Source: a virus. Taken from it: DNA of 51,808 bases. Shown here in pieces: positions 2,500 to 45,894 of the stretch (positions are counted from its first letter, which is position 1; every line of letters starts with the position of its first letter). Made by a program: the position numbers and the translations under genes. The DNA is taken from positions 1 through 51,808 of IMG/VR virus record IMGVR_UViG_3300047174_000176; one strand, written 5' to 3'. Below the pieces are notes generated by a model, which worked only from the letters and a program-made list of their open reading frames with translations, made no database searches and had not been told where the DNA came from.

Positions 2500-2840
2500 G
2501 AGCCAACCCGCACGATTCTGACGATGTTCGGCGACATCGAGGCCCACGGAACGCGCCAGCCGATCGTCTCCACCGTATAGGTTTGACCCTGGTGGAGCAG
2601 CGCTTGCATCGATGCGCTGTCGAACTTGGCCTTTTCCCCGAAGACGATCGCATCTTCGTTCCGGAAAACCTCGCCGTTCGTCCCGTAGACGTAGTAGGCG
2701 CAGCGGATGCTCTGAGCGCCGTCGCTGTCAGAACGACGCTCTTTTGATTCCACCGTGAACGTGACGATCTGCTTGTGACTTTGCTCGCAGCCGCCGAGCG
2801 AAATCGCGAGCGCCATCAGTCCAAAAAATGGGCGGCGCAT
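2496..2840 (-). CDS. Lipoprotein, 114 aa
   Basis: The N-terminus is a lipoprotein signal: RRPFF, a hydrophobic core GLMALAISL, then the lipobox LGGC with the modified Cys near residue 19. The rest is a small polar domain (KQIVTFTVESKERR, YYVYGTNGEVFRNEDAIVF) facing the periplasm. ATG at 2840 overlaps the GapR stop (TGATG). Early expression of an envelope lipoprotein fits a superinfection-exclusion role as in some other phages, but this is inference; I know no close family. Confidence 0.8.
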   Translation of the reverse strand: MRRPFFGLMALAISLGGCEQSHKQIVTFTVESKERRSDSDGAQSIRCAYYVYGTNGEVFRNEDAIVFGEKAKFDSASMQALLHQGQTYTVETIGWRVPWASMSPNIVRIVRVGS

Positions 2841-3136
2841 CACAACCCCCCGATTGCGGAAAGGTAGAGATCGATCAGCGCCTCTTCCTCCTGGCGCTTG
2901 GCTTTGTCCTGCTTACGCAGGCGGACCACTTTGCGGAGGATTTTGGTGTCGAAGCCGTCGCCCTTGGCCTCAAGGTAGACCTCCTTCAGGTCCTCGGCGA
3001 TCGCGGCCTTGTCTTCTTCCAGTCGCTCGATGCGCTCGATCAGGCTGACCAGGCGGCCTTGGGCGGCGGTGTTGAGGACGTCGTGCGCGACGGTTTCGAC
3101 GTCGCCGGCGGCGACGGGGGCTGTTCCGTCGGCCAT
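2840..3136 (-). CDS. gapR: GapR-like nucleoid-associated protein (DUF2312)
   Basis: The C-terminal 70 residues carry the DUF2312/GapR signature: [20 protein letters not shown], then [17 protein letters not shown], then [20 protein letters not shown] and an LIDLYL end. In Caulobacter GapR is a coiled-coil protein that clamps AT-rich, overtwisted DNA and supports replication and topoisomerases. A phage copy near the head of the leftward operon could organise phage DNA or reshape host chromosome topology. ATG at 3136 overlaps the upstream stop; a GTG one codon earlier is possible. Length (98 aa) is close to host GapR (about 89). Confidence 0.9.
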
Positions 3137-3327
3137 CACGCCACCACCTTGGTAGCGTCGCTGCGCACGATCTCGCGAACCGACAGTTGGAGGATCGCTG
3201 TCGGCATCGGGTTAAGCGCGGCAGCGGCACGGCCCTCATCGATCAGCTGGAAGTTGATGATCGCAGCGCGGAGGCGGGCAAGCCCAAGGTGAGAAAGAGG
3301 CGGTATCGGTTCTGCGACGTCGGCCAT
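3136..3327 (-). CDS. First gene of the leftward operon, 63 aa, unknown
   Basis: ATG at 3327 has GGAG six bases upstream and is the first start after the pL promoter, leaving a leader of about 90 bases. The product ([16 protein letters not shown], then [20 protein letters not shown]) is small and soluble with no motif I recognise. As the first early gene it is a candidate antiterminator or host-interacting peptide, but nothing in the sequence shows that. Confidence 0.7.
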
Positions 3328-3425
3328 GGGGCGCTCCAGATTGGGGAGCCGCCTCGGGCGGGGTTAGGGAAAGGACCTTCCCTCTACGATGTCGCAGCAA
3401 GCCCCGGCCGAGGTGGCCTGGGCAA

Positions 3426-3455
3426 ATAGTTCGACCATATCGAACTAGCAGTCAA
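3426..3455 (-). promoter_or_regulatory. pL promoter with operator O1 (3429-3445)
   Basis: On the minus strand TTGACT (3455-3450) is followed after 17 bases by GAACTAT. The spacer and the -10 edge contain the perfect inverted repeat GTTCGA-N5-TCGAAC (O1, 3429-3445). Every element is placed exactly as in pR at 4318-4347. It is expected to start the leftward early operon about 90 bases before the ATG at 3327 and to be blocked directly by repressor bound to O1. Confidence 0.85.
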
Positions 3456-3462
3456 TAAAAAA

Positions 3463-3479
3463 GTTCGACCCTATCGAAC
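3463..3479. promoter_or_regulatory. Operator O2
   Basis: Second copy of the inverted repeat GTTCGA-CCCTA-TCGAAC, centred 34 bases (about three helical turns) from O1 and just upstream of the pL -35 box. The spacing suits cooperative repressor binding. It contains the stop codon of the secreted-protein gene. Confidence 0.85.
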
Positions 3480-3962
3480 ATTTGCCGTAGGAGCGCTCGG
3501 CGTAGATTCTGGAGAGGATTTTAGCGCCAGGTCGATCCAATCTCGGAGAACGATTCCAGATATCTGCATTGGAGCGTCTTCGTCGAATTTCGCGTCTGGA
3601 AAGTAGGGTTCCGCGCCATCGGCAGAGTCGACCTCAACGGCGATTTTTCTGCTCGATGAATCAACGAGCGAGTCGAACACTACGATCGTATCAACAATGC
3701 GAGGTGACGATGATCCAGCAGCCGGTGCGGCAAGCTCAACCTCAGCTATGCAGGTAACCTGATCGATACTCGTGTCGTTTCTCACTAACTGAACTTTTAG
3801 CGCTTTGATTGTAGTGCGCAGAGCAGCCTCCCGAACCGATTCGTATCTAGCTCTCGACATCGGCGCCATTAAAGCGGATCGCAAGAGTTGAATAGCGGCC
3901 GGAGATCCGCATCGGGCTCGAGCCTGAGACGCTGTCGCTGCTATGGAATATTGGCCTGGCAC
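3471..3962 (-). CDS. Exported accessory protein next to the repressor
   Basis: The frame carries a hydrophobic N-terminal stretch (LLATTLALALVPG) then a polar region, so it looks exported, although the start is uncertain. The only common start codons after the repressor stop are a TTG pair and the GTG at 3962; upstream in-frame codons overlap the repressor gene. Two cysteines (ARCGSP and VTCIAE) may form a disulfide, and a conserved-looking core runs YESVREAALRTTIKALKVQL. Base composition is poorer in GC than its neighbours, a sign of recent acquisition. Lying downstream of the repressor on the same strand, it could be expressed in lysogens. Confidence 0.6.
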   Translation of the reverse strand: MPGQYSIAATASQARARCGSPAAIQLLRSALMAPMSRARYESVREAALRTTIKALKVQLVRNDTSIDQVTCIAEVELAAPAAGSSSPRIVDTIVVFDSLVDSSSRKIAVEVDSADGAEPYFPDAKFDEDAPMQISGIVLRDWIDLALKSSPESTPSAPTANVR

Positions 3963-3985
3963 CAAGGCCAAGGCGAGGGTCGTCG

Positions 3986-4258
3986 CTAAGAGGCAGGGCC
4001 ACCACCGCGAGCAATTTCGGCAGCGGTATCTCTTAGACGCCTCAATGCAAGAGCATCGGCTGGTGGCATCAACAACTCGTGCGGTCCTATTCCAAGGAGC
4101 TGTGCGACCTCGTTCACATCTTCTCGTCGATAGGATTGCTTGCCATGCCATACGAGGTGGGCCCTATTTTTCGTCCACCCTAGGCTGGTCACGAGGTCAG
4201 CTTGCTTCTTGCCAAGCTTCCTCATCCATTCTTTCAGATACCAGTCTGGGTGTTCCAC
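3986..4258 (-). CDS. Phage repressor, small HTH (CI-like)
   Basis: From the GTG at 4258 the product is 90 residues: WYLKEWMRKLGKKQADL, SLGWTKNRAHLVWHG, then VNEVAQLLGIGPHELLMP, an XRE/lambda-repressor-type helix-turn-helix. The position, divergent from a Cro-like gene with operator O3 between and O1/O2 on its other side, is the main argument that it is the lysogeny repressor. A longer frame starts at 4339, but that ATG lies in O3 and the extra 27 residues look non-coding. There is no peptidase domain, so induction would not occur by LexA-like self-cleavage. Confidence 0.75.
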   Translation of the reverse strand: MEHPDWYLKEWMRKLGKKQADLVTSLGWTKNRAHLVWHGKQSYRREDVNEVAQLLGIGPHELLMPPADALALRRLRDTAAEIARGGGPAS

Positions 4259-4317
4259 ATTGCCAGTGTCGTTTGGGACTGCCGCGGCGTCGCTCCGATA
4301 GAATCGAAGATTCGCAC

Positions 4318-4347
4318 TTGACCAAAAGTTCGATCTCATCGAACTAT
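4318..4347 (+). promoter_or_regulatory. pR promoter with operator O3 (4328-4344)
   Basis: TTGACC (4318-4323), 17 bases, then GAACTAT (4341-4347). O3 is GTTCGA-TCTCA-TCGAAC at 4328-4344. Compared with pL, the -35 box, operator halves and -10 occupy identical positions; only the five central bases, the four bases before the operator and one -35 base differ. The expected transcript start is at about 4353-4355, which puts the Cro-like gene's ATG at or next to the 5' end of its mRNA. Confidence 0.85.
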
Positions 4348-4354
4348 CCGCGTC

Positions 4355-4603
4355 ATGTCGCTTGCCCAGGTCAGAAAGAGTCGAGGCGTTACCCTCGATG
4401 AGCTGAGTCTCGTCGTTGGCCGCAGCAAGGGGACCCTTTCAGACGTTGAAAACGGCGCTGCTACACCCTCCCTCGAGCTCGCCCTCCGAATCCAAGTCTG
4501 GTCCGAAGGCGCCGTCCCCGCCGCCGAGCTGCGCCCCGACCTGAAGGACCTGATCGACGCCGCCCTGAAGACGTCGCCGGCGGGCGAGGGGGTGGCGGCG
4601 TGA
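4355..4603 (+). CDS. Cro-like XRE helix-turn-helix protein
   Basis: 82 residues with a clear XRE fold at positions 1-55: LAQVRKSRGVTLDELSLVVG, then RSKGTLSDVENGAATPSLEL. It is the first gene from pR and diverges from the repressor, the classic place of Cro. The ATG lies only about 8 bases from the -10 box, so translation is probably leaderless. The Ala/Glu-rich tail (DLKDLIDAALKTSPAGEG) has no assigned role. Its stop overlaps a GTG start. Confidence 0.85.
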   Translation: MSLAQVRKSRGVTLDELSLVVGRSKGTLSDVENGAATPSLELALRIQVWSEGAVPAAELRPDLKDLIDAALKTSPAGEGVAA

Positions 4604-8960: not shown

Positions 8961-9575
8961 TTAAGAGTCCGGTCGAACCAGCGACCGGGTTTCGGAGAGA
9001 TTTTCGAGCAGCACGCTGGTGATCGAAAGCTCATCTTCGTCCAGGGGCTTGGCCTTGAACCGTCGCAAAATTTCACGTCGGACTTCCGCGGCGATCGCAA
9101 GGCGATGTTCGAAGGCCGCGGCCGCCTCCATGTCCTTTTCCGCCACTTCGGCCGCCTTGGGTCCATATCGATCGAGGAGCTCGCTCGCCCGCGCGCGCAC
9201 CTCGGCGCGCTGGCGTCGAAGTTTTAGTAGCCAGCTGAGCTCCAGTCCCTCGCGCCGTTTGGCGTCGCGATCGGCGCGCCAGATTTCGTGCAGGTGCGCC
9301 GTCAGGCGAACATCGTCCGTCCTCATGTTGGTCGGCCAGGTGCTGTCGCCCGGTAGGCTGGCGATGAAGAACACGCGTGTCCTGCAGCCCCTAGTCTTGC
9401 ACCGGGCATGCCGGTTCCAGAGAGAATAAAGCTCGCCGCGTGATTTGATCAGGAGCTCGAGATTTACCGGCCGGTGGATCGCGCACGACGAACAGAAGGC
9501 GCTGACGGCTGCGCCCCTCTCGAAAAGATGGCCCACCGTGCTCGACCAGTGTGGGATGATAATGAAACGGCTCAT
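8961..9575 (-). CDS. Zinc-ribbon protein, possibly SOS-controlled
   Basis: From the ATG at 9575 it encodes 204 residues. Two Cys pairs in the N-terminal third (FCSSC, then CKTRGC about 35 residues later) form a likely zinc ribbon around an IHRPVNLELL segment; the rest is a charged helical region (SWLLKLRRQRAEVRARASEL). An upstream ATG at 9605 would lie inside the LexA-type site, so I prefer 9575. LexA control would make this the gene most responsive to DNA damage here, but its activity, possibly as an antirepressor, is inference. Confidence 0.7.
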   Translation of the reverse strand: MSRFIIIPHWSSTVGHLFERGAAVSAFCSSCAIHRPVNLELLIKSRGELYSLWNRHARCKTRGCRTRVFFIASLPGDSTWPTNMRTDDVRLTAHLHEIWRADRDAKRREGLELSWLLKLRRQRAEVRARASELLDRYGPKAAEVAEKDMEAAAAFEHRLAIAAEVRREILRRFKAKPLDEDELSITSVLLENLSETRSLVRPDS

Positions 9576-9598
9576 GCGATTGTAGACCTCGCCGCCAT

Positions 9599-9613
9599 GT
9601 TCCATATTTGTTC
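9599..9613. promoter_or_regulatory. LexA-type SOS box
   Basis: GTTC-CATATTT-GTTC is an exact match to the direct-repeat SOS box of Alphaproteobacteria (GTTC-N7-GTTC), with the AT-rich centre usual for it. It lies 24 bases upstream of the ATG at 9575. The divergent gene at 9745 could be affected too. Confidence 0.65.
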
Positions 9614-19779: not shown

Positions 19780-20460
19780 ATGAGACCCTCCCTGATGGGC
19801 GGCGCCAGCCGCTTCGCGCACTTCGCCGGCCTGTCGCGTCGCGCCGCCGCCGATGATGCGGACGATCGCCGCGACGATGAAAAGGACGGCAAGAAGGGCC
19901 GCCGAGCCGCCGAGGATGACGACGACACCGCCGATCCTGACGACAAAAAGGACGGCAAGAAGGGCCGCCGCGCCGCCGAGGATGACGACGACACCGCCGA
20001 TCCTGACGACAAAAAGGACGGCAAGAAGGGCCGCCGCGCCGCCGAGGATGACGATGAAGAGGAGATGGAGGAGGACGAGGATGACGATCGCGAGATGCGT
20101 GGTCGCAGCGCCGTCGCCTGCGCCCGCCGGCGTGAACGCGCCCGCTGCGCCGCCATCTTCGCAACCCCGCAGGCCGCCGAGAATCCCGAGCTCGCCATGA
20201 GTCTGGCGTTCGAAACCAACATGACCCGTCAGGCCGTCATCGCGGTCCTGAAGGGCCAGCCTCGCGCCAGCCGCCGCGATCGCGCCCAAAGCCGGGATCA
20301 GCGACGTGAGGCTCTCAATCCCGATCTCGATAACGGCGCCCCGGCTGCTCCGCGCGGCAAGGTCGTCTCCAGCGCCTGGGACACCGCCCATGCGCGTGCC
20401 AGCCACACCCGGGTAGGCTGCGACGCCTGGGGCGCGGCGCACGCACGCGCTCAAAAGTAA
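19780..20460 (+). CDS. Scaffold-like protein with charged repeats
   Basis: 226 residues. Residues about 30-95 are an extreme charge-repeat region built on KDGKKGRRAAEDDDD, coded by nearly identical 66-bp tandem units. The C-terminal part (ELAMSLAFETNMTRQAVIAV, VVSSAWDTAHARA) resembles proteins found after S49 proteases and thought to aid head assembly. Position between protease and decoration protein supports a scaffold. The repeat could vary in copy number without breaking the frame. Confidence 0.7.
   Translation: MRPSLMGGASRFAHFAGLSRRAAADDADDRRDDEKDGKKGRRAAEDDDDTADPDDKKDGKKGRRAAEDDDDTADPDDKKDGKKGRRAAEDDDEEEMEEDEDDDREMRGRSAVACARRRERARCAAIFATPQAAENPELAMSLAFETNMTRQAVIAVLKGQPRASRRDRAQSRDQRREALNPDLDNGAPAAPRGKVVSSAWDTAHARASHTRVGCDAWGAAHARAQK
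19882..20060 (+). repeat. 66-bp tandem repeat, about 2.7 units
   Basis: The unit starts AAGGACGGCAAGAAGGGCCG and recurs at intervals of 66 bases; copies 2 and 3 are almost identical and the third is truncated where the sequence turns to an acidic run. It codes alternating basic and acidic blocks in the scaffold-like protein. Confidence 0.85.
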
Positions 20461-45138: not shown

Positions 45139-45894
45139 CTACTCCGCCGGGATCAGCTCGCGGATCTTGTCCATCCGGGCTTGCACGATCTGGACGTCCA
45201 GTGGGTCACCCTGCTTTCCCAGCTTGATCGCCTCGTCCAAGATTTGCGTGGCCGCGGTGAACAGCTCGCGCCGGTAGGCGCGGTCGAGGGCGAGGTCGAG
45301 GTCGAGGGCGAGGTCGAGGTCGAGGGCGAGGGCGCGGTCGAGGGCGCGGTCGAGGGCGAGGGCGCGGTCGAGGTCGAGGGCGAGGGCGAGGGCGAGGTCG
45401 AGGGCGAGGTCGAGGTCGAGGGCGAGGTCGAGGTCGAGGGCGAGGGCGAGGGCGAGGTCGAGGGCGAGGGCGATCTGCTCAGCGACTTGCTGAACATCTC
45501 TTAGGCTACTCGCTTGCTCGCAACGGTCGGCGATCTCCGAATAGCCCATCGGCCGCAACATCAACGGGAACATCCGTCGACAGATCTGGATGATCATGAA
45601 TTCCGTTCGGAGGCGTTCCACCTCCGGCGTATCGGCCGTGCCGCCGAGGCGAGTGACGAAAGGCTTCAGGAGCTCGTTGCGAAGATCGTCCGGCATCGCG
45701 TCGTTCAGGTGGATCGCGAAAGCGGAGATTGGTCGGGAGAAGCACGGCGGGCAGTCGTTCGCTGAGCTGATAGCGCGATATTCCATGCCCATGGCGACGA
45801 TGGCCGCCTCGTTGATGCATGTTCCCCCTTCAGGGCCCGGGAAGGTGTGGGATCCAGTTTTCAGCTCCCAGTTCAAGATATGGTCGAAACTCAT
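45139..45894 (-). CDS. Protein with a 32-unit dipeptide repeat
   Basis: 251 residues. The N-terminal 140 look like a conserved domain (FPGPEGGTCINEAAIVAMGM, ANDCPPCFSRPISAFAIHLN, PFVTRLGGTADTPEVERLRT). From about 143 to 206 the chain consists of Leu-Ala, Leu-Asp and Arg-Ala dipeptides coded by hexanucleotides, then returns to a normal helix (ELFTAATQILDEAIKLGKQG). The repeat interrupts an otherwise ordinary protein and is a multiple of three, so expansion keeps the frame. Function unknown. Confidence 0.8.
   Translation of the reverse strand: MSFDHILNWELKTGSHTFPGPEGGTCINEAAIVAMGMEYRAISSANDCPPCFSRPISAFAIHLNDAMPDDLRNELLKPFVTRLGGTADTPEVERLRTEFMIIQICRRMFPLMLRPMGYSEIADRCEQASSLRDVQQVAEQIALALDLALALALDLDLALDLDLALDLALALALDLDRALALDRALDRALALDLDLALDLDLALDRAYRRELFTAATQILDEAIKLGKQGDPLDVQIVQARMDKIRELIPAE
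45279..45470. repeat. Hexanucleotide tandem repeat, about 32 units
   Basis: Units GGTCGA, GGGCGA and GGGCGC alternate for about 192 bases with larger duplicated blocks visible (for example LA-LA-LA-LD-LD recurs). All three frames on each strand stay open across the tract. It lies inside the coding region of the gene at 45139-45894. Confidence 0.95.

Follow-up and report, generated by a model that had tools for sequence, protein, structure and literature searches.

The switch of phage lambda is a textbook case of gene regulation. In the lambda record, the annotated operators OR1 and OL1 are both 17 bp long and begin 4 nt after TTGACT and TTGACA, respectively. The repressor gene lies between pL and pR, Cro directly follows pR, and the interval between the repressor and pL is occupied by rexAB. 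Cooperative binding through the C-terminal domain of the repressor is central to this switch, and lambda CI activates its own promoter, pRM, from the OR2 position; pRM has a poor -35 and gives a leaderless message. The C repressor of Rhizobium phage 16-3, a temperate phage of an alphaproteobacterial host whose operators have been studied, is likened to the present system by description only. Among the telomere phages N15, phiKO2, and PY54 (immB), the cI and cro messages of PY54 are leaderless (PMC4488713), as predicted below for the family described here; these three differ from it in being gammaproteobacterial linear-plasmid prophages with other operator sequences. In Pseudanabaena phage Pam1, a CII-like protein is annotated beside cro, and the consulted passages of a previous study propose gp47–49 as CI-, Cro-, and CII-like proteins from predicted structure and make no mention of operators (PMC9382816). 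A literature search, whose coverage left out most subscription journals, found no description of the operator family reported here.

The window analyzed is the 51,808-base stretch of IMG/VR record IMGVR_UViG_3300047174_000176. It encodes a phrog_15 terminase, a portal protein, a contractile sheath protein, a baseplate hub protein, and an integrase, indicating a temperate phage with a contractile tail. The locus is very probably the immunity switch of this phage, which would infect Caulobacterales-like hosts, and is expected to work in a lambda-like manner. As in lambda, the repressor gene (3986–4258, minus strand) is located between pL and pR and is divergent from a Cro-like gene directly behind pR, and other loci of the family are arranged alike. 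The predicted leftward operon starts with a gene of 63 aa (3136–3327, minus strand) followed by a GapR/DUF2312 gene (2840–3139, minus strand); matches at the DNA level to phages of Brevundimonas and Caulobacter lie at this second gene.

The exact inverted repeat GTTCGA-N5-TCGAAC is present at three positions and nowhere else in the window: O_L1 (3429–3445, minus strand), O_L2 (3463–3479, minus strand), and O_R1 (4328–4344, plus strand). Only 0.01 occurrences are expected from dinucleotide shuffles, and none of 100 shuffles reached three. The -35 hexamers TTGACT of pL (minus strand, 3455–3450) and TTGACC of pR (plus strand, 4318–4323) stand exactly 4 nt before the 17-bp operators O_L1 and O_R1, and O_L2 lies 34 bp behind O_L1, measured start to start. 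These sites and distances agreed with the first-pass annotation, as did the presence of a helix-turn-helix (HTH) repressor ORF between the promoters and of a Cro-like ORF (4355–4603, plus strand; HTH_3, PF01381, E value, 9.6e-08) whose ATG starts 10 nt past the right operator. The proposal that the TAT following each operator is the -10 did not hold, as its first base is 21 bp after the -35. This distance is too great, and the -10 has to include the final three or four operator bases, either as GAACTA (17-bp spacer) or as AACTAT (18-bp spacer); the -10 of lambda likewise overlaps the operator end. Operators of about 17 bp that overlap the spacers of both pR and pL are thus present as in lambda, and because the geometry of -35, 4 nt, and 17-bp operator is identical to that of OR1 and OL1, the twin operator-in-spacer design is classic rather than new.

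Relatives of the locus were collected by tblastn on named phages, by a scan with the repressor of Microcystis phage Mae-JY04, and then by an alignment scan. The tblastn search found Mae-JY04 and Pam1, and further relatives came from viral contigs and from genomes of Caulobacter, Brevundimonas, Phenylobacterium, Novosphingobium, and Sphingopyxis; scans for close relatives with the repressor of the window or of Pam1 as the query found nothing. After removal of near-duplicates, the compared set comprised 19 loci including the window (20 for some alignment columns), with a median repressor core identity of 52%. The operator plan was searched for by a repeated-palindrome scan that used none of the letters of the window, and then with each locus’s own O_R1. 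In all 19 loci, TTGAC(N) followed after 3–5 nt by a 17-bp operator flanks the repressor on both sides, with operator letters that vary (GTTCGA, GTTTCAT, GTTCGGAT, GTTCACAT, GTTCCG, TTTCACC, ATTCGCAT, and others). O_R1 lies inside pR with its first base 85–87 nt from the repressor start, usually exactly 86 as in the window, and a Cro-like HTH ORF starts 7–11 nt after it (in L057 with a corrected start). O_L1 lies inside pL, 0.4–2.7 kb beyond the repressor start, and O_L2 stands 34, 35, or 36 bp behind it in 11, 5, and 2 loci, respectively, accounting for 18 of the 18 loci where both were found. Pam1 and Mae-JY04 share this repressor family and operator plan, but their operator letters (GTTCGCAC and GTTTCAT) differ from those of the window.

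A scan of viral contigs for TTGAC-N5-GTTCGA-N5-TCGAAC returned 38 stretches, most of which held one isolated match, taken as chance and not individually annotated. In contig L014 (7218–7981), three GTTCGA-N5-TCGAAC sites surround a different HTH repressor of 120 aa, with TTGTCA and TTGACG at 4 nt and a Cro-like ORF starting at a GTG 11 bases beyond the end of the operator. The GTTCGA letters alone are therefore no marker of the repressor family.

According to the first-pass annotation, each early promoter is controlled from a single site, with a second operator adding cooperativity only on the left. The right-hand side speaks against this claim. A weaker operator, O_R2 (CTTCGATTCTATCGGAG, 4293–4309, minus strand), is predicted 35 bp behind O_R1, at -51 to -35 of the repressor start. 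For each phage, a matrix was built from its O_R1, O_L1, and O_L2, and the spacer from O_R1 to the repressor start was scanned with it. Over 19 loci, this own-operator scan peaked at offsets -51 (mean z 3.10) and -17 (mean z 2.15), where the standard deviation of the mean z is 0.23 under independence. In each of the 19 loci, offset -51 ranked with the best-scoring sites, so that the predicted O_R2 is conserved at -51 to -35 throughout the set. When operators were swapped between phages, none of 300 permutations reached the own score at -51 or -17 with the full 17-bp score, and 2 of 300 did so at -17 with the best half-site alone. In its usual form, O_R2 has a good half-site facing O_R1 and an eroded half beside pRM. 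The site at -17, O_R3, abuts the repressor start codon and is present in approximately 10 of the 19 loci, including Pam1 and Mae-JY04; the window has none (own-operator score, -20), and its predicted operators are O_R1, O_R2, O_L1, and O_L2. O_R2 of the window is itself weak, as 19 17-mers in the 51.8 kb score equally well, so its reality rests on the position shared across the family; the chance expectation at the family offset is about 3 × 19/51,792 = 0.001. A switch with one operator per promoter, left-only help from O_L2, and neither a second right-hand site nor self-activation would fit the fact that O_L1, O_L2, and O_R1 are the only exact repeats, but it leaves unexplained a site that matches each phage’s own operator at -51 and lies exactly at that offset in the window, and we consider it quite unlikely.

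The operator letters were compared with the proteins that might read them. Operator distance correlated with the distance between repressor recognition helices (Mantel r = 0.42; none of 5000 permutations), whereas no correlation was seen for the remainder of the protein (r = 0.00, p = 0.47). The signal is weaker without GTTTCAT, the largest operator group: with its four phages reduced to one, r was 0.28 (p = 0.027; partial r = 0.32, p = 0.017), and with all four removed, r was 0.24 (p = 0.073; partial r = 0.29, p = 0.048). The expectation that GTTCGA-N5-TCGAAC would track with the 90-aa repressor among relatives was thus borne out for the plan, whereas the letters change with the recognition helix. 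For the Cro recognition segment, the correlation with operator distance over all 19 loci (r = 0.20) did not exceed that of the remainder of Cro (r = 0.21), and it was 0.06 (p = 0.33) when a single GTTTCAT phage was retained. These values do not support Cro as the protein that chiefly sets the operator letters. These comparisons also bear on the idea that the palindromes serve chiefly Cro, with the 90-aa protein binding elsewhere. The stronger HTH match does belong to the Cro-like protein, and in switches of this type Cro often shares its operators with the repressor, but with a single representative of the GTTTCAT group, the letters follow the recognition helix of the repressor and not that of Cro, and O_R2 and O_R3 are positioned relative to the repressor start. 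This idea appears very unlikely.

Sites borrowed from a host regulator, either LexA or another chromosomal factor, were also considered, as GTTC and GAAC words occur in the alphaproteobacterial LexA box as well. The first-pass annotation had correctly noted that the sites do not fit this direct-repeat box: they are inverted repeats, and GTTC-N7-GTTC is found once in the window (9599–9613), a count at chance level. The letters also vary from phage to phage along with the repressor. A host origin is extremely improbable. The single GTTC-N7-GTTC adjoins the start of an open frame at 8961–9605 (minus strand).

The 19-locus layout and the helix-tracking letters give good support to the proposal that one repressor shuts off both early operons from operators within their promoters, and this part of the first-pass interpretation is predicted with high confidence. 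The part that failed is the single right-hand site, given the O_R2 position kept in 19 loci. Help from O_L2 to the left side, which may or may not be cooperative, is proposed with moderate confidence.

The promoter of the repressor itself resembles lambda pRM. In the window, a weak -35 (GCGACG, 4288–4293, minus strand; family consensus NCGACN at -35 to -30) and a -10 (GACACT, 4265–4270, minus strand, -12 to -7 of the repressor start) are predicted. When the family was aligned on the repressor start, A at -11 and T at -7 were each found in 19 of 20 loci, and the -35 columns were conserved as C-34 (17/20), G-33 (19/20), A-32 (17/20), and C-31 (16/20). ATG or GTG stands at +1, and in 20 of 20 loci the start codon is where transcription is predicted to begin, some GTG start codons having been picked with the family geometry in view. 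pRM is accordingly predicted to combine a poor -35 with a leaderless repressor mRNA, and the short distance from O_R1 to the Cro start suggests that the cro message is leaderless as well, a feature unlike lambda.

The repressor is 90 aa long when read from GTG 4258 and consists of an HTH domain and one C-terminal helix. The start of a 117-aa frame from ATG 4339 would fall inside O_R1. Pfam matches to HTH_31 and HTH_26 were weak and below the curated cut-offs. The AlphaFold model (pLDDT 87) has six helices, five short and one long at the C terminus, and its structural matches include 434 and the lambda CI N-terminal domain with DNA and sigma region 4 (1rio, 1lmb). None of these matches was significant by E value (best, 0.014), and 1rio was among the top matches. 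The model suggests a single lambda-CI-like HTH domain. A protein of 90 aa made up of one HTH and one helix is too small to include an autocleavage domain, and the C-terminal autocleavage and cooperativity domain of CI/LexA-type proteins (HTH + S24) is absent. Across the family, HTH families were the only Pfam matches shared by any number of members, and the repressors (90–148 aa) are without a C-terminal cleavage or cooperativity domain.

Family O_R2 lies at -51 to -35 of the repressor start and lambda OR2 at -50 to -34 of the cI start. Since the two positions differ by one base, self-activation of pRM is a likely role of O_R2, and we propose this role with moderate confidence. The spacings differ more: lambda has 24 bp from OR1 to OR2, 23 bp from OR2 to OR3, and 24 bp from OL1 to OL2, whereas the family has 35, 34, and 34–36 bp, respectively. 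Neighboring operators are thus 10–12 bp further out than those of lambda, approximately one helical turn, with the activation position kept within one base; the extra turn may matter for contacts between dimers. With the lambda layout present, the CI domain feature missing, and the spacing different, the system is a variant of the lambda-type switch, and the window further departs from lambda in having no O_R3.

The same sites could also serve without self-activation or cooperativity, with O_R2 and O_L2 raising the local concentration of repressor or blocking RNA polymerase. The single small domain is consistent with this possibility, since two such dimers at a 34-bp spacing would have 17 bp of DNA between them and might make no contact, and the half of O_R2 beside pRM is eroded in most relatives. 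The fixed distance from O_R2 to the repressor start, together with the poor -35 of pRM, is what activation would require, and the left side, which lacks a pRM, preserves the 34–36 bp spacing as well. We regard this alternative as rather doubtful and favor self-activation from O_R2.

In the favored model, dimers of the 90-aa repressor would occupy O_R1 and O_L1 in the lysogen, between the -35 and -10 of pR and pL, so that cro and the leftward operon are shut off. Repressor on O_R2 would touch RNA polymerase and raise the output of leaderless repressor message from pRM, whose -35 is poor, and O_L2 would reinforce repression on the left. When the repressor falls, pR would make a leaderless Cro, which is expected to act on the same sites. 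A bolder version is offered tentatively, as somewhat less probable than not: a widespread class of alphaproteobacterial phages may reproduce the complete lambda scheme, including self-activation from O_R2 and cooperativity between O_L1 and O_L2, on a single-domain repressor of about 90–110 aa whose dimers communicate across 34–36 bp, a helical turn beyond the lambda distance, without the C-terminal domain on which lambda depends for this and whose induction does not involve self-cleavage.

About 20 phages combine the promoter-operator geometry of lambda with a minimal repressor, a constant extra turn, and many operator specificities. The family provides a natural panel for finding out what operator spacing, cooperativity, and self-activation require. 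It could also help to infer repressor specificity from sequence and to predict which immunity group an alphaproteobacterial prophage belongs to.

The gap between the repressor and O_L2 is a variable cargo slot of 0.05–2.3 kb in the relatives, at the position of rexAB in lambda, and several times it encodes a small protein whose N terminus resembles a signal peptide or that of a lipoprotein. The gene of the window in this slot (3471–3971, minus strand) also has a signal-peptide-like start; its start codon is uncertain, as the open frame extends to 4151, and a search for protein families found none. The slot genes (3471–4151, minus strand, in the window, and those of relatives) are candidate superinfection-exclusion genes.

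A stem-loop directly behind O_L1 opens most pL leaders, with a mean folding z of -1.67 over the 19 loci and values below -1.5 in nine of them. In many relatives, the Shine-Dalgarno sequence of the first gene lies within its 3′ arm. In the window, the stem-loop (3401–3423, minus strand) reads GCCC.GGCC/GGCC.GGGC, and the first gene follows approximately 100 nt downstream. The window also contains two tandem repeats: a 66-bp unit rich in GAC and AAG codons at 19873–20054 (2.8 copies, 97% matches) and the 6-bp unit GGCGAG at 45277–45473 (approximately 33 copies, 85% matches).
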